From assembly GCF_900107455.1 (NCBI RefSeq), contig NZ_FNQB01000002.1, positions 124,001 to 188,000 of the forward strand: a stretch of DNA of 64,000 nucleotides, read 5' to 3'. A program made the position numbers and the translations under genes. The notes below the pieces were generated by a model, which worked only from the letters and a program-made list of their open reading frames with translations, searched no databases and was not told the DNA's origin. How positions within the stretch are numbered: position 1 is the stretch's first letter; each line of letters begins with the position of its first letter. Below, in pieces: positions 42,183-58,461 of this stretch. The stretch is from Asanoa ishikariensis. Lineage in GTDB: Bacteria > Actinomycetota > Actinomycetes > Mycobacteriales > Micromonosporaceae.

Positions 42183-43399
42183 GGCCCGAGGCGGCGCACG
42201 AGCGGCAGGGTGGATGCGACGACCCGTTCGCGGTCGTAGCAGACACCGGCCTCGAAGCCGTCGGCGTGCTCGCGCGCGAACACACCGCTCGCGTAGTGGC
42301 TGCCGATGAACAGCACGGTGCGCTCGTGCACCAGCGGGTCGTCCGCCGCCAGCGGCACGCCGCGTGCCCGGCCCGCGGGCGTGGGGTCCATGCCGTGGCC
42401 GAGCAGGTACACCTCGATGCCCCTGGTCGTGATGTAGCCGTACCGCAGCCGCGCCTCGTCGTCGAGGTTCGCGGCGTCGGCCAGGTTGACCACCAGGATG
42501 GCCGCGTCGGAGGTGTGCAGTGCCTGGTTCTCGATGTGCCCCGTCATCGCCGCCAGCAGCGGCGCGGTCGTGAGGTGCACCGCGTCGGTGCGGGAGAGCA
42601 TCTCGAAGGGTGTCTGCTCCGGAACCTGCCGAGGTGTCACCCGGGCCAGCTCCAACGTGGAGCGGTTCGCCACGGCCGGCAGCGGCCCGGGCCGGCCGAA
42701 CAGGTAGCCCTGCGCCAGGGTCGCGCCGAGCGAACGGGCCACCTCGAGGTTGCCCTCGTCCTCGATGCCCTCGGCGAGGATCTGCGCGCCGCTCCGGGCG
42801 GCCTCGTGCAGCACCGCGTTGACCACGTGCGACACCGCCCAGGTGGACGAGTGCGCCTGCACCACGCTTCGATCGATCTTGATGATGTCGGGGTTGACGA
42901 GCGGCATCGCGGCCAGGCTCGACGGTTCGACGCCCACGTCGTCGAGCGCCACTCGGGCGGAGAGCCGCCGCGCCTGGATGACGGCGTCCATCAGGGCCGG
43001 CGGATCCTGTGTCACCGCGCGCTCGGTGATCTCGATGATCACCTGCCGCTCCCGCATCAGGTCGGCGAACACGCCGAGCAGCCGATCCCGGAACGGGCCA
43101 CGCAGCGTGAGCGGGTCGAAGTTGACGAACAGCGCGAAGTCGGTGAATTCGGAGGCGAGGAAGTGCTCGCCGGCCACCCCCGCGCAGAGCCAGTTGAGGT
43201 CGGCCGAGCGGCCGAGCCGGGTCGCCACCTCGAAGAGCGCCGGCGCGGTCTCGTAGCGGCCCGCCGGTCCCCGGGCCAGCGCCTCGAATCCGACAACTGT
43301 TTGGTCGACGATCGAGACAACCGGCTGGAAAACCGGATAAATCGTGCGGTCACGCAGAATCGACTCGAACTCGTCGTCCCGTGGCTGTTCGGCAGCCAT
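42179..43399 (-). CDS. EAL-domain c-di-GMP phosphodiesterase with C-terminal sensor domain
   Basis: 406 residues from ATG 43397-43399. EAL domain about 15-255: GFEALARG (EAL 39-41), VNFDPLTL, IEITE, ALDDVGVE, DIIKIDRSVV, LAEGIEDEG, QGYLFGRP. The residues needed for metal binding and catalysis (E, N, E, D-D, K, E, Q) are all found, so hydrolysis of c-di-GMP to pGpG is expected. The C-terminal 140 residues resemble the DICT sensory domain (YGYITTRGIEVYLLGH, VLFIGSHYASGVF). No membrane segment. Head-to-tail with the LAL regulator upstream (83 nt), which may control it. Confidence 0.88.
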   Translation of the reverse strand: MAAEQPRDDEFESILRDRTIYPVFQPVVSIVDQTVVGFEALARGPAGRYETAPALFEVATRLGRSADLNWLCAGVAGEHFLASEFTDFALFVNFDPLTLRGPFRDRLLGVFADLMRERQVIIEITERAVTQDPPALMDAVIQARRLSARVALDDVGVEPSSLAAMPLVNPDIIKIDRSVVQAHSSTWAVSHVVNAVLHEAARSGAQILAEGIEDEGNLEVARSLGATLAQGYLFGRPGPLPAVANRSTLELARVTPRQVPEQTPFEMLSRTDAVHLTTAPLLAAMTGHIENQALHTSDAAILVVNLADAANLDDEARLRYGYITTRGIEVYLLGHGMDPTPAGRARGVPLAADDPLVHERTVLFIGSHYASGVFAREHADGFEAGVCYDRERVVASTLPLVRRLGP

Positions 43400-43482: not shown

Positions 43483-46215
43483 CTAGCCCGGTGACCCGCC
43501 GCCCAGCGCCCGGGTCAACTGGGCCCGGTTGCGCACTCCGTGCCGCCGGTAGAGCCGGGTCAGCTTCGCCTCGATCGCCTTCACCGACAGGTGGGTGGTC
43601 CGGGCGATCTCCCGGTTGGTCGCGCCGGACAGCACCAGGTCGACGATCCGCCGCTCGGTCTCGGACAGCCCCGGACCCTGCCCGCCGTCGAGCCGGGACA
43701 GCTCGGCCTCCGCCGCGGCCAGCCACGGCGCCGCGCCGACCGTGGCGTATCCGGCGACCGCCTGGACCAGCGCGGACCGGGACGCGCCGCGTCGGTGCGC
43801 GCGCCGCTCCAGCGTGGCGAGGGTGTGCCAGGCCTTGGCGACCTCCAGCGGGTACGGGTGGTCGCCCGCCTCGGCCAGCGCCTCGGCGAGCTCGATCGCC
43901 GCCTCCCGAGGCTCGCCCTCGGCGGCCCGAACGAGCGCGCCGGCCCGGGACAGTCCGAGTTGGACGACGTCGCGGCCGAGCGCGGCGGCCACCGAGCGGG
44001 TCTCGGTCAGCACCTCCACCGCCTCGGCGAGCTGGCCGGTCGCGGCCAGGGCCTCGACGAAGTCGGCATGCCACAGGAAGATCGCCGGGTCGTTGCGGCC
44101 GTGGCGGCGTTCTAGCTCCTGCGCCTTGCGGAACTCGATCACCGCCGCCTCGGGCGCGCCCTGGAAGAGCAGCACCTGGCCGTACGCCGCGCGGGCCAGG
44201 CGCAGCCAGTCTTCGTCGCCGGCCGCGGAGCAGGCCTCGATCGCCTGCACGAGCAGCCCGGCCGCGACCGTGGGCGAGCCGGCCAGGGTCTCGCCGATCG
44301 CGCCGGCCACCAGCCCGTGGCCCGTGGTCGCCTCCATGTCGAGGATCAGCCGCATGCTCTCGCGCCCGGCACGCAGGGCGTCGGCGCCCCGGCCCGAACG
44401 GAAGTAGATCGACGCGGACGCGAGCAGCACGCTGGACAGGTCGCGCAGCGTGCCTGACCGCAGCACCGCGTCGCGCTGCGCCTCGATCACGCGGGTCGCC
44501 TCGGCCATGTCCCCGGCGTACGCCCGGCCGCGCGCGTAGATGGCCGCCGCGTGCACGCTCTCGGTGCTCGGCGGCAGGTCGGCGGCGAGCGACGCGACGT
44601 GGCTGAGCAGCCGGGCGCTCTCCGGGTCGTGCGCGCCGCGGATCAGGGACCGGCTGGCCAGCAACGAGACGAGCTGCTCGGTCGCGCCGGCCTCGCGGGC
44701 CTCCTCCTCGCCCCGCTTGAGCTCCGCGTCGGCGAACTCGATGTCGGCGTCGTAGTAGGCCTTCAGCGCCCGGTAGTGCCGCACCCGGCAGAGCAGCCCC
44801 GGGTCGTCGCCGGCGTCGGCGAACGCGGCGTCGAGCACCGGACCTACGGCCGACTGGTCCTGGCCGGCGAGGTCGACGATGAGCAGCCGCGCGCCGACGC
44901 GTACCGCCGGGTCGTCGGCGGCCGCGAGCGCCGCGGAGGCCAGCCGGTGCGCGTCGGCGGTGAGGCCGGCGGCGTCGGCATACCCGGCGGCCGCGTAACG
45001 GCGCGCGGCGGCGACCCCGCGCAGCGAGTCGGGCGTCCGTTCGGCGGCGCGTTCGGCGAGGTCGGCGGCGACCGCGGGGGCGCCGCGCATGCGGGCGGTG
45101 GTGGCCGCCTCGACGAGCTGCGCGGCCAGGTCCTCGTCGGCGTGCGGCCGGGCCAGCGCCAGGTGCCGGGCCCGCTCGACCGAGTCGTCGGTGCGTCCGG
45201 CGATGTGCTCGTGCGCGGCCGCCCGGGCGCTCGGGGCGGCGTCGGCGTAGACGAGCTCACGCAGCAGGGGATGGGCGAACCGGACCGTGTCGTCGGGACC
45301 GACCGTGGCCACCCCGGCCTCCACCGCGGCGTCCAGCCCGTCCTTGGCGTCGCCGTCGCCGCCGATCAGGGCGACCGTCGGCCGGGCGGCCGCAGCGGCC
45401 CGCAGCAGCACCGGCCCGCTGTGTGCGGGCAGGCTGGCCACCCGCTGGGCGAGCAGCGGGCGGAGCCGCTCTGGCACCGGGAGCGGCTGGTCGACCCCGA
45501 TCGGGCCGCTCCGGGCGACCAGGGTGCGGCTCAGCTCGACGGCGAGCAGCGGGTTGCCCTGGCTGGCCTCGTGCACCCGGGCGATCGTCGACAGCGACAG
45601 CACCGGGCCGAACCGGACCCGCAGGAGGTCGGCGGTGTCGTATTCCGTCAGCGGCGGGAGCAGGAGCTCGGAGACCGGCGCTGGGCACAGGTCGGTGTGC
45701 CGTGGGCCGGCCGACTCGACCCGTTCGGCGCCGAGCAGCCGGACCCGGGCGGCGCCCAGCCGGCGGGCGACGAAACGCAGCACGCCGGCGCTGTGCGGGT
45801 CGACCCACTGGAGGTCGTCGACGAGCAGGAGCACGGTGCGGTTGGCGGCGAGCCGGCGGAGCACCTCGAGCGTGGCGAGCCGGACCGCGAGCTGGTCCTG
45901 CGCGGTGACCGGCGCGGCACCGCGCAGCAACGCGCCGTCGAACGCGGCCCGCAAATGGCGGGGCAGGCCGTCGCCGCTGATCCCGTCGAACAGGTCGACC
46001 AGGGTCAGGTAGGGCAGGCCGGACTCGACCTCGGCGGCGTTGGCGCGCAGCACGATCGGGTCGCCGGCGAGCGCCGGGTAGGCGGCGAGCACGGTGGACT
46101 TGCCGATGCCGGCGGGTCCGTGGACGACCACGCTCTCGCCGGCGGTGAGCCGGGCGTGCAGCTGGTCGAGCACGTCGGACCGGCCGACCGGCGCCGTGTC
46201 GCGGTTGACTACCAC
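43483..46215 (-). CDS. LAL-type LuxR regulator (large ATP-binding)
   Basis: 910 residues. N-terminal AAA/STAND ATPase: Walker A GPAGIGKST (33-41), Walker B LLLVDDLQWVD (about 127-137). A long TPR-like Ala/Leu helical repeat region follows (about 330-830), then a C-terminal LuxR HTH (about 845-905) with LSETERRIVDLVLSGATNREIA and SVKAIEAKLTRLYRRHGVRNR. Such proteins bind ATP and an effector, then activate transcription. It is 76 nt downstream of the Hsp70-like gene on the same strand and could be co-transcribed with it. Paralogue of the regulator at 53639-55891. Confidence 0.9.
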   Translation of the reverse strand: MVVNRDTAPVGRSDVLDQLHARLTAGESVVVHGPAGIGKSTVLAAYPALAGDPIVLRANAAEVESGLPYLTLVDLFDGISGDGLPRHLRAAFDGALLRGAAPVTAQDQLAVRLATLEVLRRLAANRTVLLLVDDLQWVDPHSAGVLRFVARRLGAARVRLLGAERVESAGPRHTDLCPAPVSELLLPPLTEYDTADLLRVRFGPVLSLSTIARVHEASQGNPLLAVELSRTLVARSGPIGVDQPLPVPERLRPLLAQRVASLPAHSGPVLLRAAAAARPTVALIGGDGDAKDGLDAAVEAGVATVGPDDTVRFAHPLLRELVYADAAPSARAAAHEHIAGRTDDSVERARHLALARPHADEDLAAQLVEAATTARMRGAPAVAADLAERAAERTPDSLRGVAAARRYAAAGYADAAGLTADAHRLASAALAAADDPAVRVGARLLIVDLAGQDQSAVGPVLDAAFADAGDDPGLLCRVRHYRALKAYYDADIEFADAELKRGEEEAREAGATEQLVSLLASRSLIRGAHDPESARLLSHVASLAADLPPSTESVHAAAIYARGRAYAGDMAEATRVIEAQRDAVLRSGTLRDLSSVLLASASIYFRSGRGADALRAGRESMRLILDMEATTGHGLVAGAIGETLAGSPTVAAGLLVQAIEACSAAGDEDWLRLARAAYGQVLLFQGAPEAAVIEFRKAQELERRHGRNDPAIFLWHADFVEALAATGQLAEAVEVLTETRSVAAALGRDVVQLGLSRAGALVRAAEGEPREAAIELAEALAEAGDHPYPLEVAKAWHTLATLERRAHRRGASRSALVQAVAGYATVGAAPWLAAAEAELSRLDGGQGPGLSETERRIVDLVLSGATNREIARTTHLSVKAIEAKLTRLYRRHGVRNRAQLTRALGGGSPG

Positions 46216-46291: not shown

Positions 46292-48340
46292 CTAGCGACG
46301 GTCCTGGATGGTTACGCAGTTGCCCGTTTCGTATCCGCCCTCTTGGTCCTTGACCAGGAGGTCGGCGGCGTCGGAGATGCGCGCGCAGACCTTCGGATTG
46401 GTGCCGATGACATCGCGGTAGTTGCCCTGTTCGATCGAGCGCACCGACGGCTGCTTGTCCTCCAGGTAGAACCGGCCGGGCTGGTCGGACTGGAAGCCCA
46501 TCCGCGCCGCCGGCGGGTTCGTGCCGTCACCACCGTAGATGTGCAGGTGGAAGCCACCGACGTTCTGCGGGGTCGCGCCGCCCCACTCGACGTCGTACTC
46601 GACGACGAACTTCGTGTTGTCGACGAAGGCCGCGGTGATGCAGACCCAACGGGCGTTGCTCTGGATGGCCTCGGTGCACTGCTCTTCCGGTGGCAGCACC
46701 ACCGCGCTCGCGGCTCCCGTGTTGCCCGGCGTCGGGGTCGGGTCGGCGCCGCCGAACCCGAGGTTGTCGCGGTTGACCCAGATCGCCGCTCCGGCCAGTG
46801 CCAGGACCGCCACGACGACACCCGCGACCAGAGCGGTCCGGTTGCGGCCCGGCCTGGTCGGCGCGGGTGCGGGCGGGGCGGAGGGGTAGGCGTACTCGAT
46901 CCGGTGCGGGCGGGGGTCGACAGTCGGCGCGGGTCCCGAGCCGGCGCGGCCCTGGGCGAACGCCTGGGTCCGCGGGGTGGCCTCGGCCGGTTGGGGCGTG
47001 CGCGGCCGGGTCATGCCTGACAGTGGCTGCGGTACGGGTGCGCCGGAGGTTGGCCGCGGTGCGGGGGAGATCGGCCGGGCGGGGGAGATCGGGCGAGCCG
47101 GGGAGACCGGGCGGGCCGGCATCGGAGGCGAGCTGACGGGCGCGCCGGGCATCGGGGCGCTGGGCATCGGTGGTGCGCTCACCGGGGCCGAGCCGGTGGC
47201 CCGGGTCGGTGGGTGGTGGATGACCACCGTGGCGGAGCCGCGCGCCGAGCCCGCGTCCGGTGCCTGCGTGGTGCCGCCCAACGGAGCGCCGGCCAGCCGG
47301 GCCGCGCCGAGGGCCACCGCGTGCTTGGGGTGCGCGTCGACCGCGACCGGCCGGTTGAGCTCCGCCGCCACGAGCTGGGCGACGATCGGCATCCGCGACG
47401 AGCCGCCGACCAGCAGCACCGAGTGCAGTTGCTCGGCCTCGACACCGGCCGAGCGCAGCGCCCGCCGCAACGACTCGATCGAGCCGTAGAGGGCCGGCCG
47501 GACCATGCCCTCCAGCTCGCCCCGCGTCAGCCGGACCTCGGTGGACAGGTTGGGCAGCAGCACCGGGATGGACGCGTCGGTGTCGGCGGACAGTGCCTCC
47601 TTGGCCGCCACGCACTCCTCGCGCAGCCGGGCCACCGCGGCGATCGCGGCCGGGTCGTCCTCGTCGAGCTCGGCCAGCTTGCCGCCGAGTGCCTGGGTGA
47701 CGTGGTGGAAGACCGCCGCGTCGAAGTCGATGCCGCCGAGTCGCTCGATGCCCTCCGGCTGGCCGAGGATCTCGAAGCCCTGTGCGGTCTTGCGCAGCAC
47801 GGCCGCGTCGAACGTCCCGCCGCCGAGGTCGTAGACCGCGACCACGGCGCCGGTGTCGATCCGCTGCTGGCTCGCGTAGAACACCGCGGCCGCCTCGGGC
47901 TCGGTGATGAACGAGACGGGCTCCTCGACGCCGGAGAGCCGCACGGCCTGGCGTAGCAGGTCCGTCTTGTACGGACCCCAGTTGGCCGGGTGCGACACGG
48001 TGATCGCCCGGGGCGCACCGCCCTCCCGGCTGGACACCTCGTCGATGGTCCAGCGCAGCAGCCGGCCCATCAGCGCCTCGGCCGAGTACGGCACGCCGCC
48101 GAGCAGGATCGGCGTGGTGTCACCGAACCGGCGCTTGAACTCCCGCGCGACCCGGTGCGGCTCGCTCAGCCCGCGCCGGTTGGCCGGCTCACCGGTCAGG
48201 AACGTCTCGTCCTCCCGCAGCAGCACCACCGACGGCACGGCGGCCGCCCGGCTGCCCAGCGAGGCGATCTCCGCGTGACCCGCACGCCAGGTCGCGGCCG
48301 CGGTGAAGGTGGTGCCGAGGTCAACGCCGAGTGCGTACAT
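46292..48340 (-). CDS. membrane-anchored Hsp70/DnaK-like ATPase without substrate-binding domain
   Basis: 682 residues from ATG 48338-48340. Residues 1-352 are a full Hsp70/actin-type ATPase domain: phosphate-1 GVDLGTTFT, phosphate-2 DLGGGTFDAAV (171-181), adenosine LLVGGSSRMP (309-318). After it there is no DnaK substrate-binding domain or lid. Instead come a Pro/Ala/Ser linker with repeated ARPISP units (about 355-500), one TM helix (502-522) and an extracytoplasmic domain of about 160 residues with four Cys. This places ATPase inside and a probable disulfide-bonded module outside. Gene is divergent from the acidic protein at 48504 and stands next to the ini-like operon, suggesting a shared role in envelope stress. 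Confidence 0.88.
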   Translation of the reverse strand: MYALGVDLGTTFTAAATWRAGHAEIASLGSRAAAVPSVVLLREDETFLTGEPANRRGLSEPHRVAREFKRRFGDTTPILLGGVPYSAEALMGRLLRWTIDEVSSREGGAPRAITVSHPANWGPYKTDLLRQAVRLSGVEEPVSFITEPEAAAVFYASQQRIDTGAVVAVYDLGGGTFDAAVLRKTAQGFEILGQPEGIERLGGIDFDAAVFHHVTQALGGKLAELDEDDPAAIAAVARLREECVAAKEALSADTDASIPVLLPNLSTEVRLTRGELEGMVRPALYGSIESLRRALRSAGVEAEQLHSVLLVGGSSRMPIVAQLVAAELNRPVAVDAHPKHAVALGAARLAGAPLGGTTQAPDAGSARGSATVVIHHPPTRATGSAPVSAPPMPSAPMPGAPVSSPPMPARPVSPARPISPARPISPAPRPTSGAPVPQPLSGMTRPRTPQPAEATPRTQAFAQGRAGSGPAPTVDPRPHRIEYAYPSAPPAPAPTRPGRNRTALVAGVVVAVLALAGAAIWVNRDNLGFGGADPTPTPGNTGAASAVVLPPEEQCTEAIQSNARWVCITAAFVDNTKFVVEYDVEWGGATPQNVGGFHLHIYGGDGTNPPAARMGFQSDQPGRFYLEDKQPSVRSIEQGNYRDVIGTNPKVCARISDAADLLVKDQEGGYETGNCVTIQDRR

Positions 48341-48503
48341 CGCGGTCGCTCCGGTGGTCGTGGGCAGTTGCTGGATCGAGTGTTCTTGATGGCAGGACGG
48401 CGGTCCGGATGCTGTCGGGAGTCCGACCCCGGCCGGGCGAGGGGGGTGCGGGAGGGGGATGTCCCCGACGCCGGGCACCGCCCGCCGCCCTAGGGTTGGG
48501 CAC

Positions 48504-49052
48504 ATGGACGCGCGACCGCTGAAGGACGTTTTCACCGACCTCGTCGGTGACCCGTCGGCGAACGCTGCGGCGCTGGCCGGAGCGGGCCACGACCTGCCGC
48601 CGGACCTGGTGGCGGAAGCGGTCGTCAGCTTCGCAGGCAGCGCACCCGCGGAGGTCGCCGAGCACCTCGCGCCGTTCGTCACCGCGCACAGCGGCGTCCC
48701 GGTGGAGTCCGAGCTCGAGGAGCCGGCCGGCTGGGCCGAGCTGCTGGCCACCGCGCCCGAGCCCGGCACCGAGCTCGACGACGACGTGCCGCTCGACGTG
48801 CCGCAGGGTGACCACCCCGGCGTCGGCGAGCTGGCCTTCGGTTCTGGCGACACCTCCGGGCAGACCCCGGACCTCGACCTCGACACGGACCCCGGCGGCG
48901 ACCTGGACGACGAGCCGGTCGCCGTCGGCGGGGGTCCCTCGGAGTACCCCGACGACCTCGCCGACGACACCGAGGGCTTCACCGACCTCGACGCGGCGGA
49001 CAACTCCGACGACGGGGACGACGCGGACGAGCCGGACGAGCTCGACGGCTGA
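48504..49052 (+). CDS. acidic two-part protein beside the ini-like operon
   Basis: 182 residues from ATG 48504. The first about 70 residues are a compact helical domain (LKDVFTDLVGDPSANAAAL, DLPPDLVAEAVVSF, VAEHLAPFV). The rest is Asp/Glu/Pro/Gly-rich (more than 40 acidic residues), likely disordered. The split into a short helical head and an acidic tail mirrors the IniB-like protein, though I see no clear sequence homology. Divergent from the Hsp70-like gene, 163 bp between, and converges with the IniC-like gene, 14 nt between stops. No known domain. Confidence 0.7.
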   Translation: MDARPLKDVFTDLVGDPSANAAALAGAGHDLPPDLVAEAVVSFAGSAPAEVAEHLAPFVTAHSGVPVESELEEPAGWAELLATAPEPGTELDDDVPLDVPQGDHPGVGELAFGSGDTSGQTPDLDLDTDPGGDLDDEPVAVGGGPSEYPDDLADDTEGFTDLDAADNSDDGDDADEPDELDG

Positions 49053-49066
49053 GCGGCGGAGCATGG

Positions 49067-50539
49067 TCAGCGGGCCCGACCGTTGAGGTCGGCCAGCAGC
49101 CCCTCACAGGAGCGCACCGCCACCCGGGCGGCGACGGCCATCTCGTGTGCGGTCATCGGGTTCTCCGCGCGTCGCTGCCAGCGCACCAGTGCCTCGGCCG
49201 CCGACGAGCGGATCTGGCCCGCGGCGGCGTCCGGCGGCAGGTCGAGGCGGACGTGCGGCGCGGTGCCGGTGCCGCCGATGACCCGTTCCAGCTCGTCCAC
49301 CACGGCCGGCTTGCCACCTAGCCAGCCGGCGCGCAGGGTGGCCAGCACCCGCAGCTCGTTGAACGGGTGCGCGGACGCGACGATCTCCTCCACCTCGGCC
49401 GCCACGGCCGGGCTGCCGGGTCGGGGCTTGGTGCGGGCCAGCGAGTCGAGGGCGAGCAGCGCCGAGCGGGCCTTGAGCACGTCGCGGCGCTCGAAGAACA
49501 GCGAGCCGAGCACCTCCTGCAGGTCGGTCAGCCCGCTGCGCTCGGTCAACTGGCGGGCCAGCCCGGTTGCGGTGATCTGCGCGTCCTGGCGCAGCAGCGT
49601 GCTGGCCAGCCGGACGCCGTAGAGCCCGAAACGGGCCAGCAGCGCCTCGCGCTCGATCGAGGTCAGCCCCAGTTCGGGCAGCGCGTTGACGAACCGGTCG
49701 GCGGTGAGCAGCAGCTCCTCGGCCGGCTTGACCTCGAGCGCCGCGACCGCCCGCAGGTGCCGCACCTCGGACTCGGTCAGCGTCGCCGCCGTTTCCGCGA
49801 GCAGGCCGGCCACGGGTACGACGGTCTGCACCACCCGCCGCACGTTGGCGTCGCCGGCCAGCCGGTTGGCGATCCGCCGGGCGGAGGCCATCGCGTCGAG
49901 CCGCCCGACACCGATCTCGTCAGCCCGGGACAGCACACCGATCGCGTTGACCGGGTTGGGCCGGGACACCTCGGTGTCGTGGAAGGCGTGCAGGAACTCC
50001 AGGTCGTTGGCGTGCAGGTGGCGCATCAGGTAGAGCACCGCGTCGGCCGGCGTCTCCTCGTCGTCGGGCGCGAGCAGCTCCCACGCCCGCCGGGTGACCC
50101 GCTCGGAGAGCGAGCCGATGCCGGGCGTGTCGATCAGCGTGGCCCGGCGCAGGGCCTGCGTGGGCCAGGTGATGTCGAGCGAGTGCACGTCCTCCGGCGC
50201 GGTGCCGCCCAGGTCGACCTCGATCGCGCCGTCGTCGCGAGTGAACCGGAGCTGGCGCGCGTCGCCCGTGTGCGGGTGGAGGGTGACCCGGTAGGTGTGC
50301 CCGTCGCGGTACCAGGTGACGATCCGCGTGCACTCGCCCGCGTCGGTCGGCGCGAGCCGGTCGGCCACCAGCGCGTTGAGCAAAGTGGACTTGCCGGACT
50401 TGACCCGGCCGGCGATCGCCACCCGCAGCGGTTCGTCGAGCCGCTCACGGACCTCGGCGATCCGCCCGTCGAAGCCACTGCCCCGATAGACCCCCGCGGC
50501 CCGGGTCAACGCCGCCCGCGTCCGTTCGACGAGCGTCAT
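49067..50539 (-). CDS. dynamin-like GTPase, IniC-like
   Basis: 490 residues from ATG 50537-50539. GTPase domain: G1 GRVKSGKST (44-52), G3 DTPGIGS (137-143), G4 SRAD (204-207), with the rest helical. Length nearly equals mycobacterial IniC (about 490). No strong TM helix. Its ATG overlaps the stop of the IniA-like gene (ATGA at 50536-50539). In mycobacteria IniA and IniC are co-expressed dynamin-like proteins that remodel membranes, and IniA itself can cut lipid membranes. This protein is probably the hetero-partner of the upstream one. Confidence 0.85.
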   Translation of the reverse strand: MTLVERTRAALTRAAGVYRGSGFDGRIAEVRERLDEPLRVAIAGRVKSGKSTLLNALVADRLAPTDAGECTRIVTWYRDGHTYRVTLHPHTGDARQLRFTRDDGAIEVDLGGTAPEDVHSLDITWPTQALRRATLIDTPGIGSLSERVTRRAWELLAPDDEETPADAVLYLMRHLHANDLEFLHAFHDTEVSRPNPVNAIGVLSRADEIGVGRLDAMASARRIANRLAGDANVRRVVQTVVPVAGLLAETAATLTESEVRHLRAVAALEVKPAEELLLTADRFVNALPELGLTSIEREALLARFGLYGVRLASTLLRQDAQITATGLARQLTERSGLTDLQEVLGSLFFERRDVLKARSALLALDSLARTKPRPGSPAVAAEVEEIVASAHPFNELRVLATLRAGWLGGKPAVVDELERVIGGTGTAPHVRLDLPPDAAAGQIRSSAAEALVRWQRRAENPMTAHEMAVAARVAVRSCEGLLADLNGRAR

Positions 50540-52308
50540 GCCGCACTCAGCTTGAGGGCGCGCTCGCGGAGTTGGCCCAGGCGGGTCAGTTCGGCGTCGA
50601 GGTCCTTGAGTCGCTTCTGGCGCTCGGCCTGCGAGCGCTTGGCGTTGTTGGTGGCACCGGCCACCGCGGCCGCCGTGGACCGGTTGAGCTCGTCGGCCAG
50701 CCGGGTGTAGTGGTCGCGGAGCTGGCGCTGCACGCGGCGCACGGTGTCCCGGCTGTCCTTCCCGCTCACGAAGCTGATCTCGTCGCAGTATCGGCGCATC
50801 GCGTTCTTGCCCTGGGCGCGGCGCTTCTCCAACTGCCGCTTCTTCTCGTCCTTGAGGCCGCGATGGCCCATCACCACGCCGATGCCGATGCCGATCGGCC
50901 CCAGCGCGACGCCCATCAGGCTGCCCAGCATGGTGAACATCAGGGCGCCGCCGTACGCGCTCTTGAGTGCCACCATCACCTGCTTGCCGGCGGTCATCCG
51001 GGCCAGCTCGATGCGGTGCTCGACCGCGCGCTCCTCGACCAAGGGGGTCGGGTTGTAGACCTTGAGCATGCCGATCGCTTCGCCGGACGCCTCCTGGAAG
51101 TGGCCGGCCACCACCTCGCTGAGCTCGGTGGCCCGGCGGCGCAGGTAGGTGTAGTTGCCGAGCAGGTCGTACGAGATGCGGGCGCGCAGCCACTCTTCCA
51201 TCTCGGGCCACATGTCGGCCGGGTCGACCTCGTCGATCGCGTCGTCGGCCTCCGACGTGATCTTGCGGATCCGGTCGCGCAGGTCGAAGTCGACATCGGC
51301 GGTCAGGTCGGCGGTGCCGTCGTTGAGGGTCACGCTCCACCGCGCGGCGGCGGTCTTCAACTCCTCGACCCGGCGCTTGGCGGTGTTGAGGTCGTCGACG
51401 ATCTGCTGCGCGTTGGCCGGGTCGGCCAGCGCGCCACGCTCCGCGGTGAACTGGCCGGTGAGCTGGTCGCAGACCGCGAGCACCTCGGCCGCCGCGTCGG
51501 CGGAACGGCGGGCCGCGGCGCCGCCGCCGACCCGCTCCTGCACGAACTTGACCAGGTCGGGGAACCCGGACTCGACGTTGAGCGGCTGGTCGTTGGCGCG
51601 CACCGCGCGGGTGCGCAGCGGCGAGGAGACCGGCAGCAACTGCAGGTCGCCGACCATCCGCAGGTGGCCCGCGTTCAGGTCGCGGATCCGTCGCCAGGCC
51701 GGGTAGAAGTCAATCTTGGTCAGTACGCAGACCACCGTCTGGCACAGCTCACGCGCCTGGCGGAGGAACTCGACCTCGCTGCGGGTGAGCTCCTGCGAGG
51801 CGTCGGTGACGAACAGGACGGCGTCGGCGACCGAGATCGCGGCCAGGCCGGCCGCCGCGTGCGCGGAACCGAGCCCGCCGACGCCCGGGGTGTCGACCAG
51901 GACCAGCCCGCCGTTGAGGATCTTGCGAGGCACGGTCACGTCGACCCGCGCCGGCCGGCGCCCCTCGTCGCCCTCGACGACGTGCCGGCGCAGGTCGGCG
52001 AAGTCGACCTGCGTGCGGCGCGGCGGGTCGCCGTCGTGCACCACGGTCGCGGTCTTCTCCTCGCCGTGCCGCACGAAGGTGGGCACCGCGGTCGCCACGT
52101 CGTCGTCGACCGGGCACACCGCGATGCCCAGCAACGCGTTGATCAGCGAGCTCTTGCCCTGCTTGAACTCGCCCGCCACCACGATGTGCACCGCCGGGTC
52201 GTCGAGCCCGGCCCGGGTCCGGCCGAGCCGCGCGGCGAGATCCTCCCGCCCGTACGCCGTGCAGGCCTTGACGCCGAGGTCAACCAGGGCGGTGGCTGGC
52301 TGGGTCAT
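50536..52308 (-). CDS. dynamin-like GTPase, IniA-like
   Basis: 590 residues. G1 GEFKQGKSS (46-54), Thr in VATAVPT as G2 candidate, G3 DTPGVGG (139-145), G4 TKID (197-200). The stalk is helical, and a hydrophobic hairpin at about 452-482 (GALMFTMLGSLMGVALGPIGIGIGVVMG) could insert into the membrane, as paddle regions do in bacterial dynamins. A Lys/Arg-rich coiled segment ends the protein. Mycobacterial IniA is about 640 residues with the same order. Second gene of the operon, 92 nt after the IniB-like gene, coupled to the IniC-like gene. Confidence 0.87.
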   Translation of the reverse strand: MTQPATALVDLGVKACTAYGREDLAARLGRTRAGLDDPAVHIVVAGEFKQGKSSLINALLGIAVCPVDDDVATAVPTFVRHGEEKTATVVHDGDPPRRTQVDFADLRRHVVEGDEGRRPARVDVTVPRKILNGGLVLVDTPGVGGLGSAHAAAGLAAISVADAVLFVTDASQELTRSEVEFLRQARELCQTVVCVLTKIDFYPAWRRIRDLNAGHLRMVGDLQLLPVSSPLRTRAVRANDQPLNVESGFPDLVKFVQERVGGGAAARRSADAAAEVLAVCDQLTGQFTAERGALADPANAQQIVDDLNTAKRRVEELKTAAARWSVTLNDGTADLTADVDFDLRDRIRKITSEADDAIDEVDPADMWPEMEEWLRARISYDLLGNYTYLRRRATELSEVVAGHFQEASGEAIGMLKVYNPTPLVEERAVEHRIELARMTAGKQVMVALKSAYGGALMFTMLGSLMGVALGPIGIGIGVVMGHRGLKDEKKRQLEKRRAQGKNAMRRYCDEISFVSGKDSRDTVRRVQRQLRDHYTRLADELNRSTAAAVAGATNNAKRSQAERQKRLKDLDAELTRLGQLRERALKLSAA

Positions 52309-52400
52309 CGCTGCGATCCCTTCGGTGTACGGCGCAGCGGCCGGCCGGACCTTCCGGTCCGACCGCCCGCTGCGGTGCAGTGGTTATGGAGTTGGCTGGA

Positions 52401-53459
52401 TCAGGCCGGGGCGTCCTCGTGGTCCTGCGCGTCGCGCAGCGACGGCTCGTCGGCCTCCTCGAGCGTCCGTACCGGCGGCAGGCTGACGTCCACGTCGAAG
52501 TCCTGGTCGAACTCGGCGTCCTGGTCGCCAGGGCCCTGCTCAGTGTTGACCACCGAGTCGTCGGCGTCGATGGTCGTGGTCTCGGTGTTGGTGGTGTCGT
52601 TGTCCTCGTTGGTGACGTCGCCGTCGCCCAGGCCGATCGCGGAGTCGTCGTTGTCGGCGATGTTGGTGCCCGAGCCGACGTTGGAGTTGTCGAGCGTCGA
52701 GTCGTTGACGTTGTTCACGTCGCCGTCGCCGAAGTTGATGACGCCGTCGTTGTCTCCGTCGACGTCCACGTCGTTGGCCTGCTGCTCGTTGTTGTTGCCG
52801 ATGATCGCCCGGTCGACGTCGCCGTCGGCCACGATGCCGGTGTTGACGCCGGTCACGACGGGCGCCTCGAGGTCACCGTCGACGCTGACCGCGCCGTCGC
52901 TGTTGAACAGGTTGTCGCCCTCGATGTCGCCGTCGACGACCTGGGAGTTGGCCCCGGTCGCGGCGTTCACCTCGTCGGCCTCGCCGACGGCCACGGCGCC
53001 GGCGCCGGACGCGTTGGCGGCGTTGCTGTCGACGTCGATGTCGCCGTCGAAGTCGTCGCCGACCTCGACGTTGGTGCTCTGGTCGAGGATCTCGGTGATC
53101 ACGTCGTTGTCGTTGTTGGTGACCTGCGTGACGTAGGTCAGGTGCTGCACGACCTGCTCCATCGACTGCGGCCCGGAGGTCACGTGGTGTGCGGGCGGGG
53201 AGTAGCCGCCGCCACCGCCACCGCTGCCGCCGCTGGTGTAGCTCTGCAGCGCGCCGCGGGCGTCGGCCGGGAAGCCGGGGTCGCCGCAGGCCTGCTGCAC
53301 GATCGCGGGCATGTCCAGACCGGACAGGTCGTGCTCGGTGATGCCCGAGGCGACAAGCTCGCCCTCGGGGTTCTGGGCGAACTGCAGTGCCTTGCCCGGG
53401 TCGCTCGCCAGCTGCTTGACGAAGTTGACCAGGAGGTTGGTGAGCTCGACGTTCTGCAT
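52401..53459 (-). CDS. IniB-like protein with Asn/Asp-rich repeat body
   Basis: 352 residues from ATG 53457-53459, preceded by GAAGGAGGA. Residues 1-70 match the IniB N-terminal domain type: NVELTNLLVNFVKQLASDPGKAL, a GITEHDLSG turn and an Ala/Cys helix. A Gly/Ser hinge follows (about 72-85), then from about 105 to 300 a region of alternating Asp/Asn/Val/Gly with recurring units such as VDGDIEGDN, VDGDNDGV, FGDGDVN and NSNVGSGTN that would suit a parallel beta-helix. The C-tail is acidic. No signal peptide. IniB in mycobacteria is a Gly/Ala-rich protein of unknown role encoded first in iniBAC. Start of the operon; the regulator gene lies directly upstream. Confidence 0.8.
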   Translation of the reverse strand: MQNVELTNLLVNFVKQLASDPGKALQFAQNPEGELVASGITEHDLSGLDMPAIVQQACGDPGFPADARGALQSYTSGGSGGGGGGYSPPAHHVTSGPQSMEQVVQHLTYVTQVTNNDNDVITEILDQSTNVEVGDDFDGDIDVDSNAANASGAGAVAVGEADEVNAATGANSQVVDGDIEGDNLFNSDGAVSVDGDLEAPVVTGVNTGIVADGDVDRAIIGNNNEQQANDVDVDGDNDGVINFGDGDVNNVNDSTLDNSNVGSGTNIADNDDSAIGLGDGDVTNEDNDTTNTETTTIDADDSVVNTEQGPGDQDAEFDQDFDVDVSLPPVRTLEEADEPSLRDAQDHEDAPA

Positions 53460-53638
53460 TTCCGGTTCCTCCTTCAGAGGATCTCTCGCGCTCCCGGCCT
53501 GTCTGGCGGGTATGGATACAGCGTCGCCGCCGGGCCACCCCCCGGACATCGGGAAGTCCCCCCTGGCTGGGGGGAGGGGTTAGGGGGATCGGCCGGTACA
53601 CAGCAGACCGCGAAATCGACCTCTGATGACGCGGAGTG
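53460..53638 (-). promoter_or_regulatory. promoter region of the ini-like operon
   Basis: 179 bp between the IniR-like stop and the IniB-like ATG. It holds a strong ribosome-binding site (complement of TCCTCCTTC near 53467) and a C/G-rich palindromic zone at about 53530-53585 with runs of CCCCC and GGGGAGGGG-type sequence. I see no confident -35/-10 pair. In mycobacteria the equivalent interval is the inducible iniB promoter. Confidence 0.4.
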
Positions 53639-55891
53639 TCAGGAATCCGCCTGACCAGTGTTGAGCAGGGATTTCAAGGCGGCCACGAACTCGGCTCGGT
53701 CGGTCGCGCCAACCTTCACCCGGATCCGTGCCACGTGGTGTTCGACGGTCTTCGGCGAGATGTAGAGCTGTGCCCCGATCTCCTTGTGGGTGCGGCCATC
53801 CAGCACCAACCGAGCCACCTCTACCTCGCGTTCGGACAGCCCGGCCGTGTTGCTCTCGCCGGCCCCGGAGCGGTCTTGCTCCACACCGGACAGTTCGCGG
53901 GCCACCTCCAGCAGCCGGCGGGCGGCGGCCGGGTCGGCGGTACGGATCGCGGCGTGCCCGGCGAGCCGGGAGGCCTCCCAGGGCAGCTCGGCCGCGGCCA
54001 GCCCGTCGACGGCGGCGACCACGGCCGCGACGTCGACCGTCCCGGCCATCGAGCGTGACCACACCACCGCGGCGGCCGCCTGGGCGCGCTGGCGTTGGTG
54101 TGCGGGATCGGCGGCGGCGATCGCGTCGGCGGCCGTGGCGACCACGGCCGCGTCGTCGGCCGCGACCCCGAGCTGGAGCCGGATCCACGCGATGGCCACC
54201 GTCCAGGCCGCCGGGCTGCCCAGGCCGGTGACCGCGGCGTCGAGCGTGGCCAGCACCGGCGCGATCCGCTGGGGCCGGCGCAGCCGGGTCGCCGCCACCG
54301 CGAGCTCCTCGACCTGCTCCACCTGGAACAGGTCGACGGCCTGCCGGGCCAGCACGGGCTCGACGCTGGCCCACGCCTCGCGCAGCTTCGCGATGTCACC
54401 GGAGCGCCGGGCCAGCCCGGCGCGCAGCGAGGCCGCCAGCAGCACCTCGCGGCCCGGCAGGCCGCTGCCCAGCCGCCGCAGCTCCGCGGCCGCGGTGTCG
54501 TAGCGGCCGGTGCGCAGCCGCACCCAGGCCAGCAGCAGCCGGTGCCGCTGTGTGCCGACCGGCCCGCCGACGCCGCGTTCGAGGGCGCGGCCCAGCAGAT
54601 GCTCGGCGGTGGCGGCGTCGCCGGCGGTCACCGCGACGACCGCTCCCCACGCGTGCGGCGTATCGGGCAGGACCACGGCCGGCGGGGTCCGCTCGGCCGC
54701 CTCGGCGGCCTCGATCAGCAGGGGTACGGCGGCCGCCGGATCCCCACCCGCCGCCAGCACCGCCTCAGCCAAGAGAAGCAAGGGCCCCTTGTTAACGCTT
54801 TCCGCATAGGAAGGGTCCCTTGCTAACAGCTCGCGGGCCGTGGCCGCTCGGCCCAGGGCGACCAAAGGTGGCACCGCCAGCAGCGGGCCGGGTGGTGCGG
54901 CGGCGGCCAGCACCTCGGCCGCGCGGGCCGGCCGGCCGTCGTGCGTCGCGACAGCGCCGGCCACCAGGGCAAGGCGGTGGGGGTCGCCGGCCGGGCCGGG
55001 GTCGACCGGGAGTCCGACCAGCGCCGCCGCCTCGGCCTGCCCGGCCGCGACCAGGGCCGGCTCGGCGCCCGCGTCCACCGCGTCGGCGTACCAACCGATC
55101 GCGGCGGCCGGGTCGGTGAAGCGCAGGCGGTCGCCGGCGGCGCGGAACACGTCGGCGCCGGTGCGGATCCGGGCGGCCCGCAACTGGGTCGCGGCCGCGA
55201 CCGGGTCGGCGCCCGAGGCGGCCAGGGCGGCGGCCACCCGGGCGTGCACCCGGCGGCGCTCGGCCGGCGCGAGGTCGTCGAGCAGCGCGGTCGCGACGGC
55301 GGGCACCGGCCGCTCCGCGCCGGGCACCAGGAAACCCAGGTCGCGCAGCGTGCGCAGGGCGTCGGCGAGGGCGTCCGGACGTTGGCCGGTGGCTTCGGCA
55401 AGCACGTCGTCGGTCAGGTCGAGGCCGAGCGCGAGCGTCCGCGCGACCTCGGCAACGCCCGGAGACACGGTGGTGAGCCGCCGCTGCACGCGGGGGAGCA
55501 AGCCGCCGGTGGCGAGCAGGGCCGCGATCGCCGGCCAGCCCGCCGACGGGGTGTGCAGGTCGGTGCGCCCGGTCAGGGCCGCGACACCGGCGGCGTCGAG
55601 CGGACCTAGCTGCACGACGCCGTCACGTGCGGCGAGCTCGTCGAGCTCGGCCAGCGCCGGCCGGTCCAGGGTCGGGCGGCGGCCGAGCAGCACCGGCACC
55701 TGGCGGCGGGCCACATCGGACAGCGCGCGCAGGGTCGGCTCGTCGAGCCGGTGCGGATCGTCGACCACCACAGCCGCCGCGGACGGCGGGACAGCGGGCC
55801 GGTCGGGGGTCACCCAGACGGCGTCGGGCGGGGCGAGCGTGCGCAGCCGGTGCGTACGACCGGCTCCATCCACCCCGACCACGACCGTCAC
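53639..55891 (-). CDS. large LuxR-type regulator in IniR position
   Basis: 750 residues from GTG 55889-55891. N-terminal ATPase-like part with a degenerate P-loop GVDGAGRT (Arg in place of the Lys) and Walker-B-like AAVVVDDPHRLDE, a long Ala/Leu helical repeat body, and a C-terminal LuxR HTH (about 683-745) with LSEREVEVARLVLDGRTHKEIG and SPKTVEHHVARIRVKVGATDR. Mycobacterial IniR (Rv0339c), which activates iniBAC, is the same kind of protein in the same place. Between about 53639 and 55891 lies a 52-bp repeat at 54776-54827 read in frame, adding about 17 residues and a TTA codon. Preceded by a 7-bp inverted repeat and, 53 nt further, the glycan synthase operon on the same strand. Confidence 0.82.
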   Translation of the reverse strand: MTVVVGVDGAGRTHRLRTLAPPDAVWVTPDRPAVPPSAAAVVVDDPHRLDEPTLRALSDVARRQVPVLLGRRPTLDRPALAELDELAARDGVVQLGPLDAAGVAALTGRTDLHTPSAGWPAIAALLATGGLLPRVQRRLTTVSPGVAEVARTLALGLDLTDDVLAEATGQRPDALADALRTLRDLGFLVPGAERPVPAVATALLDDLAPAERRRVHARVAAALAASGADPVAAATQLRAARIRTGADVFRAAGDRLRFTDPAAAIGWYADAVDAGAEPALVAAGQAEAAALVGLPVDPGPAGDPHRLALVAGAVATHDGRPARAAEVLAAAAPPGPLLAVPPLVALGRAATARELLARDPSYAESVNKGPLLLLAEAVLAAGGDPAAAVPLLIEAAEAAERTPPAVVLPDTPHAWGAVVAVTAGDAATAEHLLGRALERGVGGPVGTQRHRLLLAWVRLRTGRYDTAAAELRRLGSGLPGREVLLAASLRAGLARRSGDIAKLREAWASVEPVLARQAVDLFQVEQVEELAVAATRLRRPQRIAPVLATLDAAVTGLGSPAAWTVAIAWIRLQLGVAADDAAVVATAADAIAAADPAHQRQRAQAAAAVVWSRSMAGTVDVAAVVAAVDGLAAAELPWEASRLAGHAAIRTADPAAARRLLEVARELSGVEQDRSGAGESNTAGLSEREVEVARLVLDGRTHKEIGAQLYISPKTVEHHVARIRVKVGATDRAEFVAALKSLLNTGQADS
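54776..54827. repeat. palindromic repeat copy 3, inside a coding region
   Basis: AAGCAAGGGCCCCTTGTTAA, CGCTTTCCGCATAGG and AAGGGTCCCTTGCTAAC follow one another. This is the reverse complement of the 17619-17670 element, with CAT in place of its AGC. Here it lies in the IniR-like gene, keeps the frame and encodes a segment that includes LARDPSYAESVNKGPLL. It introduces the rare leucine codon TTA. Confidence 0.88.
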
Positions 55892-55944: not shown

Positions 55945-58461
55945 CTACGCTTGGACCGCGGCCTCGCCGGTGCGGCGCAGCTTGTGCCAGCGCAGTCGGC
56001 CGCCGGTCAGGGCGGTGACCAACGACTGGATCAGGACCAGATACATGAGCTGCCGGTACGCGAACTGTTGCAGCGGCAGCGTCCAGAGTGGCGTGAGCCG
56101 CTCCTTGTCGAGCTTGAACGCGACCACGCCGGTCACCACCTGCATGCCGAGCATCGCGAGCCAGGCCAACACGGTCTCCAGGCGGCCGGCGAACAGCACG
56201 CCGTAGACGGCCAGCAGGTCGATCACCGGTGCGAGCAGCGGCAGCGCGATGCTGAACAGCGCCAGGAACGGCAGGCCGCGCCGGCCGAACCGGCCCGACG
56301 GCCCGTCGTCGACCAGCGACCGGCGGTGCTTCCACATCGCCTGCATGGTGCCGTAGCTCCACCGGTAGCGCTGCCGCCAGAGCTGGCTCAGCGAAGCGGG
56401 TGCCTCGGTCCAGGCGCGGGCGCGGCCCTCGTACACGACCTTCCAACCGGCGCGGCAGAACGCGATCGTGACGTCGGTGTCCTCGGCGAGCGTGTCGTCG
56501 CTCATCCCGCCGATGGCCAGCAGCGCGTCCTTGCGCCAGGCGCCGATCGCTCCCGGGACCGTCGGCATGCAGCGCAGCGACTCGTACAGCCGGCGGTCGA
56601 GGTTGAAGCCGATCACGTACTCGATGTGCTGCCAGCGGGCGACCAGGGTGGCCCGGTTGCCGACCTTGACGTTGCCGGCGACCGCGCCCACCTCCGGGTC
56701 GGCGAACGGCTGCACGAGCTGGCGCACCGAGTCGCTCTCGAAGACCGTGTCCCCGTCGACCATCACGATGATGTCGGTGGTGGCCGCGGCGACGCCGGTG
56801 TTCAGCGCGCTCGACTTGCCGCCGTTCGGCTTGCGGATCACCCGTACGTTGGGCAATCCGAGCGACTCGGCGATGTCGGCGGTGTCGTCGGTCGAGCCGT
56901 CGTCGACGACGATCACGTCGATGCCGCCAGGGTGGTCGCCACTGGCCAGCGACCGGACGGCCGACTCGATGCCCTCCCGCTCGTTGTAGGCGGGCACGAT
57001 CACCGTGACCCGCTCGGTCACCGGCGGACCCCACGACCAGTTGCCGCGGCGGCGCCTGGCCTGCGTTCCGGAGAGCACGAAGAGCAGCAGCGTACGGATC
57101 AGCGTCAGGGCACCGACGACCAGGAAGAGCACCGCGAAGAAGTCCAGCGACCAGTCGGCGATCCGGATCGCGGTCGCGAGGGCCAGGCCGCGCTGCTGGT
57201 CGGCGGCCGCGGCGGGCGGGTTGGGCAGCACCGTCGGCGCGGCGCCGGTCTCCGGGTCGGTCAGGGAGCGCCGCAGGCCGTCGGAGACCGTGACGAAGCT
57301 GTACCCCTGAGCCTGCATCATCGGGATGAACCGGTCGAGCGCCTGCACGGTCTGCTGGCGGTCACCACCGGCGTCGTGCAGCAGGATCACGGCGCCGGCG
57401 TCGCCCTCGGGCAGCATGCTGGCGACGATCTTGTCGACGCCCGGGCGTTCCCAGTCGCGGCTGTCCAGGTCGTTGACCACGGTGACATAGCCCATCCGGC
57501 CGGCCTTGGTGACCAGGTCCCAGGCGGAGTCGTCGATCGCGTCGGCCCGGGACGAGTACGGGAACCGCAGCAGCGAGCTGCGCACCCCGGCCGCTTCGGC
57601 CAGCGCGAGCTGGGTCTGCGAGTACTCCATCCGCCGGCGCCACTCGGGGAGCGTCGCGATGTCCGGGTGGGTGAAGGTGTGCACGCCGAGCTCGTGGCCC
57701 TTGCCGACCAGGTCCCGGGCCAGCTCGGGATAGCGGACCACCTGGGAGCCGATCACGAAGAACGTCCCGTTGGCGTGGTAGCGGTCCAGCGTGGCCATCA
57801 CCTGCGGCGTCCACCGGGGGTCGGGGCCGTCGTCGAAGGTGAGCGCGATGGTCTTGGGGGGCAGCCGGTAGGAGCGCGCGTCCTCACCCGGCCGCGCGTT
57901 GATGATCGGTCCGCCGCTGAGGATCTCCTCGGGTACGACGGTGGTGTCGCCCTGCTCGGTCTGGTGGTCGGGGGTGAAGCGGGCGTTCGCGTACGCCTCG
58001 ACCAGCAACAGGCTCACGAAGACGAAGACCAGGACCGCGGCGACGACCCACTTGGGCTTGGGCACGACCCGGCGGGCGGTCCGCTTGGGTGGCGGTGGAT
58101 CCGCGTGTACGACCGGGGGTGCGCTGGCCGGTGGTGGCGGCGGCGCCAGCATCACGGCGGTCGACGCCTCGTCGGGTCGGGTGCGGGTGCGCTGGCTCGG
58201 CAGCACGCGGGTCGCCACGTTGAGGTTGAGCGGCCAGCGCGGGGGCGGGTTGTCGGGCACGGTGGCGCGGCCGGTCGCGGGTGGCTGGGGGATCGGGATC
58301 GGCTGCGTGTCTTCGTCCGGGTCGGGGAGCTCGTCCAGCGGCGGGTACTCCGCGCGTTGCGGGCCGATCTTGATGCCGGCCGGGACGCTGGCCTTCCCGC
58401 GGACGGGCTCGCCGGCGATGCCGGCGAGCCCGTCCGCGGGGTCACGGGTCGGTGCGCTCAT
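55945..58461 (-). CDS. fused polysaccharide deacetylase / GT2 glycan synthase
   Basis: 838 residues. A Pro-rich cytoplasmic N-tail (about 1-138) leads to TM1 (about 139-160), then an external NodB-type deacetylase (about 200-390) with TFDDGPD, HTFTHPD and LRFPYSS motifs and a catalytic LLHDAGG. After a TM helix (about 440-465) comes a processive GT2 domain (about 485-720): VTVIVPAYNERE, VVDDGSTDDT, MVDGDTVFE (DxD), AEDTDVTI and the QxxRW-type QRYRW, followed by four TM helices. It resembles hyaluronan/chitin/PNAG synthases fused to the modifying enzyme, as found in many actinobacteria. The ATG overlaps the stop of the gene upstream. Confidence 0.9.
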   Translation of the reverse strand: MSAPTRDPADGLAGIAGEPVRGKASVPAGIKIGPQRAEYPPLDELPDPDEDTQPIPIPQPPATGRATVPDNPPPRWPLNLNVATRVLPSQRTRTRPDEASTAVMLAPPPPPASAPPVVHADPPPPKRTARRVVPKPKWVVAAVLVFVFVSLLLVEAYANARFTPDHQTEQGDTTVVPEEILSGGPIINARPGEDARSYRLPPKTIALTFDDGPDPRWTPQVMATLDRYHANGTFFVIGSQVVRYPELARDLVGKGHELGVHTFTHPDIATLPEWRRRMEYSQTQLALAEAAGVRSSLLRFPYSSRADAIDDSAWDLVTKAGRMGYVTVVNDLDSRDWERPGVDKIVASMLPEGDAGAVILLHDAGGDRQQTVQALDRFIPMMQAQGYSFVTVSDGLRRSLTDPETGAAPTVLPNPPAAAADQQRGLALATAIRIADWSLDFFAVLFLVVGALTLIRTLLLFVLSGTQARRRRGNWSWGPPVTERVTVIVPAYNEREGIESAVRSLASGDHPGGIDVIVVDDGSTDDTADIAESLGLPNVRVIRKPNGGKSSALNTGVAAATTDIIVMVDGDTVFESDSVRQLVQPFADPEVGAVAGNVKVGNRATLVARWQHIEYVIGFNLDRRLYESLRCMPTVPGAIGAWRKDALLAIGGMSDDTLAEDTDVTIAFCRAGWKVVYEGRARAWTEAPASLSQLWRQRYRWSYGTMQAMWKHRRSLVDDGPSGRFGRRGLPFLALFSIALPLLAPVIDLLAVYGVLFAGRLETVLAWLAMLGMQVVTGVVAFKLDKERLTPLWTLPLQQFAYRQLMYLVLIQSLVTALTGGRLRWHKLRRTGEAAVQA

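Follow-up and report, generated by a model that had tools for sequence, protein, structure and literature searches.

An Hsp70-like ATPase accompanies iniBAC-like genes in Asanoa ishikariensis and many other actinobacteria and may act as a switch on IniR

Introduction

The locus described here, which lies in a window of 64,000 nucleotides of Asanoa ishikariensis DNA (the whole stretch that was analysed), is in our reading an envelope-stress system of the iniBAC kind in its actinobacterial form, with an Hsp70-like ATPase as a fifth regular component that may serve as a transmembrane switch on the regulator IniR; to this reading as a whole we give about even odds (roughly 0.5). Among the operons with which mycobacteria respond to cell-wall stress, iniBAC is the best known. 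The Hsp70 gene is a regular neighbour of ini genes in many of the actinobacteria sampled, and its presence in the window is no local accident. Of the parts of the reading, the best supported is that the Hsp70 would be a core and co-regulated component of the IniR-IniB-IniA-IniC system; it is probably also a switch that depends on ATP and is tied to IniR.

The ini locus of the window

The window genome measures 9.09 Mb and is near that of Asanoa hainanensis, whose Hsp70 is 91% identical. The genes concerned are the following.

43483..46215, minus strand: second LAL regulator (AAA_16 4.1e-18; GerE 2.9e-8), a neighbour and not a conserved member
46292..48340, minus strand: Hsp70-like protein of 682 aa (PF00012 5.7e-46)
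48504..49052, plus strand: acidic protein, possibly a second IniB-like protein (start 48504 conserved; 48459 possible)
49067..50539, minus strand: IniC dynamin-like GTPase (Dynamin_N 1e-9), its start on the iniA stop (ATGA)
50536..52308, minus strand: IniA dynamin-like GTPase (Dynamin_N 7.5e-24; 6j72 E 2.2e-111)
52401..53459, minus strand: IniB-like acidic protein with an IniB-type N-terminal domain (IniB_NTERM 16.5 bits)
53639..55891, minus strand: IniR-like STAND/LuxR regulator (NF038181 221.7 bits; GerE 1.2e-13)

The minus strand thus carries the IniR-like, IniB-like, IniA and IniC genes in that order, followed by the acidic gene on the plus strand and the Hsp70 gene again on the minus strand; downstream of the Hsp70 gene come the second LAL regulator and an EAL-DICT protein. 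A sequence-only reading of this DNA had described the same genes, from the IniR-like regulator and the ATGA-coupled dynamins to the divergent acidic protein, the Hsp70 and the second LAL regulator, and these genes are confirmed. IniA resembles the solved M. smegmatis IniA (6j72_A) over residues 9-590 of 590, and IniC is assigned by its dynamin domain, its position behind iniA and its homologues in other ini loci. The IniR-like protein scores under the curated cut-off of 750 bits for NF038181 and is, judged by that score, a divergent relative outside the equivalog; elsewhere the same model gave 1414.9 (L093), 449.6 (L071), 447.8 (L085) and 212.3 bits (L029).

The sequence-only reading had also made the second LuxR/LAL regulator a part of the system, although its span (46292..55891) begins at the Hsp70 gene and leaves that regulator outside. 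This claim is not supported: the protein shows no match to IniR at E 1e-15, its close homologues occur in 3/31 loci, all of them Asanoa, and it is not part of the ini-Hsp70 module. In three Asanoa relatives, and in Asanoa only, both it and the EAL-DICT protein (42179-43393, c-di-GMP phosphodiesterase-like) stand behind the Hsp70 gene. Control of iniBAC by c-di-GMP has been reported in mycobacteria, in the accessible portion of PMC13413693.

Two further observations concern the iniR end of the locus. Directly before iniR, at 55945-58461, lies a gene for a large membrane protein in which polysaccharide-deacetylase-like and glycosyltransferase-2-like parts can be read by eye. Inside the IniR-like gene itself, at 54776-54796, is a 21-nt palindromic repeat, GTTAACAAGGGGCCCTTGCTT. 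When up to 2 mismatches are allowed, the genome has 82 copies of it, against 0 in the control; the copy in iniR falls in a part of the protein whose length differs between Asanoa relatives.

Linkage of Hsp70 and ini genes across genomes

Neighbourhoods were compared in a sample anchored on IniC and assembled regardless of Hsp70, from the places listed for IniC in 98 genomes of the class (E <=1e-10) and in 61 of the family (E <=1e-60), the window's own place apart. Its 52 rows represent 50 distinct loci, repeats having been removed (L098 is L099, L107 is L065); L105 and L106 contain no IniC, being pieces of flank. An Hsp70-domain gene was scored with a profile built here (E <1e-20) if no more than 3 kb separated it from the IniA-IniC pair. 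Such a gene was found in 31/34 loci with at least 5 kb of flank on each side, at 12-2,810 nt from the pair and in several gene orders, and in 38/50 distinct loci when the flank rule was dropped. Of the 34 well-flanked loci, 24 contain IniR, and every one of these (24/24) has the Hsp70; seven more (7/34) hold the Hsp70 and the dynamin pair with no IniR within the stretch examined. The three without a nearby Hsp70 are L090, L097 and L099, the last being the window genome's own second IniA-IniC pair. That pair (L099, 5012-8313 on contig C3) is also without IniR, and its nearest Hsp70 within the sequence examined is 12.6 kb away. Viewed from the Hsp70 instead, IniA and/or IniC, whole or cut, occur in 27/31 loci on genome contigs; the other four (L024, L034, L035 and L039) have neither in the stretch examined.

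PF00012 gives 3-25 matches per 5-11 Mb genome (17 genomes chosen for having ini loci; one gene may give two matches), so a chance neighbour would be expected in about 1-5% of cases per 20 kb. Among 61 related genomes, the window's own included, proteins of at least 70% identity were found for both Hsp70 and IniC in 9, for IniC alone in 1 (G121, on a short contig), for Hsp70 alone in 1 (G125) and for neither in 50; the Fisher value of 5.7e-9 ignores kinship, and the 70% cut was set after the listing had been seen. G154 was scored IniC-negative at first, yet IniA, IniC and IniR proved to be present when its Hsp70 was inspected. The lone Hsp70 of G125 (L128, contig C32) is of the window type, 74% identical, with no ini genes in 19.5 kb.

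The tree of ATPase domains places most of the ini-linked Hsp70s together, in a clade of 67 sequences that also takes in near paralogues and has support 0.999, separate from 17 other Micromonosporaceae Hsp70s; the set was delimited after the tree was seen. The clade also holds L024, L034 and L035, which have no ini neighbours, and mycobacterial-type paralogues, and the Hsp70s beside the four most remote IniA-IniC pairs (L100-L103) lie outside it. Excluded from the tree were L030 (two frames), L037 (identical with L056), the repeats L054, L055, L058 and L084, and matches of under 220 residues (hence L080).

These data bear on a simple explanation, namely that the Hsp70 is a general envelope-protein chaperone collected into the ini regulon for convenience, with no specific contact to IniR or the dynamins. 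These genomes do contain many Hsp70-type genes, and regulons do collect unrelated envelope genes; but a single Hsp70 clade tracks the ini locus through several rearrangements, the window-type ATPase domain is strongly conserved and no match to a substrate-binding domain was found, and we consider this explanation the least probable of those weighed here. Among observations of other Hsp70s, four Hsp70-type genes including dnaK lie within 50 kb around the mycobacterial-type iniR in L093 and G049 (722-772 kb), and G003 and G082 have a full-length dnaK-type gene within 20 kb of iniC.

Gene orders and the ini module

Gene order differs among the loci. In layout B, found in other Micromonosporaceae, the Hsp70 gene and then iniR lie on one strand and the IniB-type, IniA and IniC genes on the other. 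In 17 loci the Hsp70 gene immediately precedes iniR and shares its strand, the two genes being -1 to 258 nt apart; these loci comprise 13/13 of layout B, 2/3 of family f2 and 2 from Salinispora. L093, a member of f2, has an IniR above the mycobacterial cut-off (1414.9 bits vs 750) and Hsp70-type genes on both sides. In a further arrangement (L013, L017, L022, L031, L059-L061) the Hsp70 gene stands in line behind iniC. When the layouts are compared, the usual module consists of IniR, one or two IniB-type proteins, IniA, IniC and Hsp70. The placement of Hsp70 directly before iniR points to a possible switch near the regulator, either in place of a dynamin motor or in addition to one.

The IniB-like protein of the window, a weak match, reaches 16.5 bits against NF038175 (IniB_NTERM), under the cut-off of 40, and 14/15 aligned IniB-like proteins, the window's included, match the model at E <=1 (best 1.3e-8). 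The cut-off was exceeded by 5/6 layout-B and f13 proteins scanned; L029 gave 29 bits, L033 and L027 had no match, and iniB* of L093 (Rv0340 family) scored 179.4 bits, above the curated cut-off. Inspection by eye found IniB-type proteins between Hsp70 and IniA in 8 layout-B and 5 f13 loci and recognised none in the gaps of L063, L066, L091 and L031. The acidic gene product is possibly a second IniB-like protein: 1/14 aligned acidic proteins, and not that of the window, matches IniB_NTERM, weakly (0.0019), and hhalign of the acidic protein against the IniB domain gave E 3.4e-4 with a probability of 38%, or 3.6% with longer alignments. The N-termini of some IniB-type proteins (A2, A3, L070, L088, L029) show weak matches to NHLP-type RiPP leader peptide models.

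A shared operator-like palindrome

The iniB operon and the divergent acidic/Hsp70 pair share one operator-like palindrome, which occurs at two sites in the window.

53544..53586, minus strand: operator-like site before iniB, CCCCTAA, then 16 nt, then GGGGGGACTTCCCGATG
48449..48472, either strand: operator-like palindrome GGGGGATGTCCCC between the acidic gene and the Hsp70 gene

The pattern GGG(G/A)(A/T)NN(T/C)CCC, first spotted by eye in the very sequences in which it was later counted, is found before iniB in 22/23 cases (shuffles 1.3) and before Hsp70 in 21/37 (1.5), and in 0/30 before iniA and 0/29 before iniC. Its stricter form GGGG(A/T)NN(T/C)CCC stands before the acidic gene in 24/26, at 39-50 nt from the start codon, and is often followed by a TANNNT box near the start of that gene. 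Repeats were excluded from these counts, along with L018, L019, L023, L029, L037 and L094 before iniB (uncertain starts or too divergent) and L029 before the acidic gene. The exact stricter form occurs at two places only in the 64-kb window, 48455 and 53551, and most close relatives retain both sites. A matrix made from the sites scores these two at 18.5 and 24.1, respectively, and is weaker elsewhere in the window (best 13.5, at 39252). Matrix sites were also found between the Hsp70 and the IniB-type gene in 5/5 f13 loci and L029, that of L089 (f13) being weak (10.8, below another match in the same locus), and before iniB* in L095; there is none before iniB* in L093 and L094, and none in the Hsp70-iniA gap of the 13 layout-B loci, where the exact pattern occurs once (L083).

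The palindrome might instead be the operator of another regulator, such as the second LAL or a general protein that binds G tracts, which would leave the acidic/Hsp70 pair outside the control of IniR. That IniR binds the palindrome is our assumption, and layout-B loci have IniR but no motif at the expected place. Yet the palindrome is kept where close homologues of the second LAL, confined to Asanoa, are absent, and IniR is common to those loci with the palindrome whose sequence extends far enough to reveal it, which leads us to regard control by another protein as improbable, if somewhat less so than a mere convenience neighbour.

Domains and catalytic residues

The Hsp70-like protein is built of an ATPase domain (aa 1-352), a Pro-rich linker, a membrane helix and an outer domain, the last two of which map as follows.

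46775..46843, minus strand: likely membrane helix, position transferred from relatives (hydropathy and alignment)
46295..46702, minus strand: outer domain, a predicted beta protein, Ig/Fn3-like by comparison, with an invariant HxH and two Cys

PF00012 matches the protein with 157.4 bits (cut-off 20.6) over the ATPase domain alone; the best match stops at residue 352 with no match to a substrate-binding domain, and the DnaK equivalog gives 147.1 bits vs the 648 required. Complete close relatives, to which the window protein was aligned, have a hydrophobic stretch after the ATPase domain (KD >=1.9 over 19 residues), in keeping with the membrane anchor that the sequence-only reading had seen, and structure prediction returns a folded outer domain (pLDDT 92.8). 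The larger envelope-stress machine which that reading proposed is partly supported: the Hsp70 does belong with the ini genes, by the neighbourhood comparison and the operator-like site shared with iniB, and does have a predicted external domain, and it is the second LAL that drops out. Absence from most relatives, which that reading had named as evidence against its proposal, was not observed for the Hsp70, given its presence in 31/34 well-flanked loci. Layout-B Hsp70s show no membrane helix by hydropathy, and so cannot be transmembrane sensors and could act from the cytoplasm only. In L017 (10001-12457) and L035 (5161-7734) the outer domain resembles by eye a beta propeller and not a sandwich, as if outer domains had been swapped, and the Hsp70 gene of L030 (5745-7438) is in two reading frames, through a frameshift or a sequencing error.

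Catalytic residues follow the type of locus. All Hsp70s of the window-type clade (40/40) retain D8, K70, E171, D194, T199 and D201 (DnaK numbering), and 39 retain T11. The P-loop of the window's IniR-like protein is GVDGAGRT, with Arg in place of the Walker A Lys, and the window-type form GVDG(A/S)GR(T/S) carries this change in 21/21 readable sequences (20 loci and the window); IniR of L018, L019, L023 and L037 (contig ends) and of L077 (broken frame) was left unjudged. In layout B, the Hsp70 has lost K70 in 12/12, D194 in 11 and T199 in 9, with D8 kept in 12/12 and E171 in 7, and IniR keeps the P-loop Lys in all 12 readable, the P-loop there starting with Ala and its lysines being read by eye from the N-termini. 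The f2 Hsp70s have D8 replaced by Ser, K70 by Val and T199 by Gly in 3/3, with D194 kept and the IniR P-loop Lys present. Both partners are intact in L029; in f13 all 3 IniR sequences that could be read have the P-loop Lys, and the Hsp70s retain their residues except for K70 in 1/7. The swap of residues between Hsp70 and IniR is suggestive and may stem from about two events. It is a tentative proposal, and one that we think less likely than not, that in actinobacterial ini systems a transmembrane Hsp70-type ATP switch is the envelope sensor of IniR. Nucleotide control would then lie with the Hsp70 in the window type, where the IniR P-loop is lost, and with IniR in layout B and the mycobacterial type, where the Hsp70 is degenerate, the switch having moved between the partners in evolution.

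A different role for the Hsp70 can be drawn from a eukaryotic parallel. Hsc70, together with auxilin, strips clathrin once dynamin has acted. By analogy, the membrane-anchored Hsp70 could be an effector of the dynamins, and not a sensor for IniR, that disassembles or remodels assemblies of IniA/IniC or of IniB. The 7/34 loci in which it is kept with the dynamins and no IniR is seen in the examined stretch suggest that it may indeed serve them, and its position in line behind iniC in several loci, together with the operator-like region it has in common with the acidic gene, fits the same idea. The effector role accords less well with an Hsp70 that lacks a substrate-binding match, with the absence of J-domain and GrpE matches among the eight window proteins scanned, with the loss of several catalytic residues in 12 layout-B and 3 f2 Hsp70s, and with the direct pairing with iniR in 17 loci. 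We consider it unlikely on balance, though the strongest of the competing explanations.

A proposed mechanism

On the preferred reading, in which the Hsp70 is a transmembrane switch on IniR, IniR would bind the palindrome and thereby turn on iniB-iniA-iniC and the acidic gene, and would also switch on the Hsp70, via the shared region or by read-through. The outer domain of the Hsp70 would follow the state of the envelope and its ATPase domain would hold or free IniR, much as MalK does with MalT. Freed IniR would raise IniB, IniA and IniC and in this way bring about membrane remodelling, and a feedback loop would be closed if IniR, the target of the Hsp70, in turn induced it. The switch is inferred from the gene pairing, the anatomy of the protein, the MalT-MalK precedent and the published view that the mycobacterial signal is perceived extracytoplasmically. 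Mycobacterial trehalose sensing is probably periplasmic, according to the available part of PMC5760070. An ATPase that has a membrane anchor and a folded outer domain, stands beside the ini system in several actinobacterial families and, in the window type, has its operator-like site in common with it, is a concrete candidate for the link between envelope damage and IniR; if true, this would be an unusual use of the Hsp70 ATPase domain as an envelope sensor or switch.

Comparison with known systems

Membrane-bound MalK holds MalT, a STAND/LuxR regulator related to IniR. The likeness would be one of working: a STAND/LuxR activator and a membrane-bound ATPase that could hold the activator inactive. 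The MalT box, GGGGA(T/G)GAGG, resembles half of the ini palindrome. Unlike MalK, the ATPase here is an Hsp70-type domain, and no ABC transporter is among the eight window proteins scanned. With Hsp70s of the DnaK/HscA type the window protein shares an ATPase domain that has all the catalytic residues checked; it differs from them in having no matched substrate-binding domain, in its membrane anchor and predicted beta outer domain, and in belonging to a separate clade.

The closest likeness is to the mycobacterial iniR-iniB*-iniBAC genes, as presented in the accessible part of PMC5760070, with which the window shares an IniR-type regulator, IniB-type proteins, IniA (similar to 6j72 over its whole length) and IniC. 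As far as that part of the paper extends, the window differs in the membrane-anchored Hsp70 beside these genes, in having iniR on the same strand before iniB, in the change of Lys to Arg in the IniR P-loop, and in IniR and IniB scores under the curated cut-offs. The same part of PMC5760070 mentions that iniR of M. smegmatis has a dnaK-like gene next to it, drawing no conclusion and naming no other species, and its wording implies that M. tuberculosis and M. marinum have no such gene beside iniR. This mention was the sole relevant statement seen among the papers listed from the open-access literature, subscription journals being outside the scope of the search. The M. smegmatis gene is like those described here in that an Hsp70-like gene adjoins iniR, as in L093; what in the available text of PMC5760070 is a mention for one species is found here in most of the ini loci sampled.
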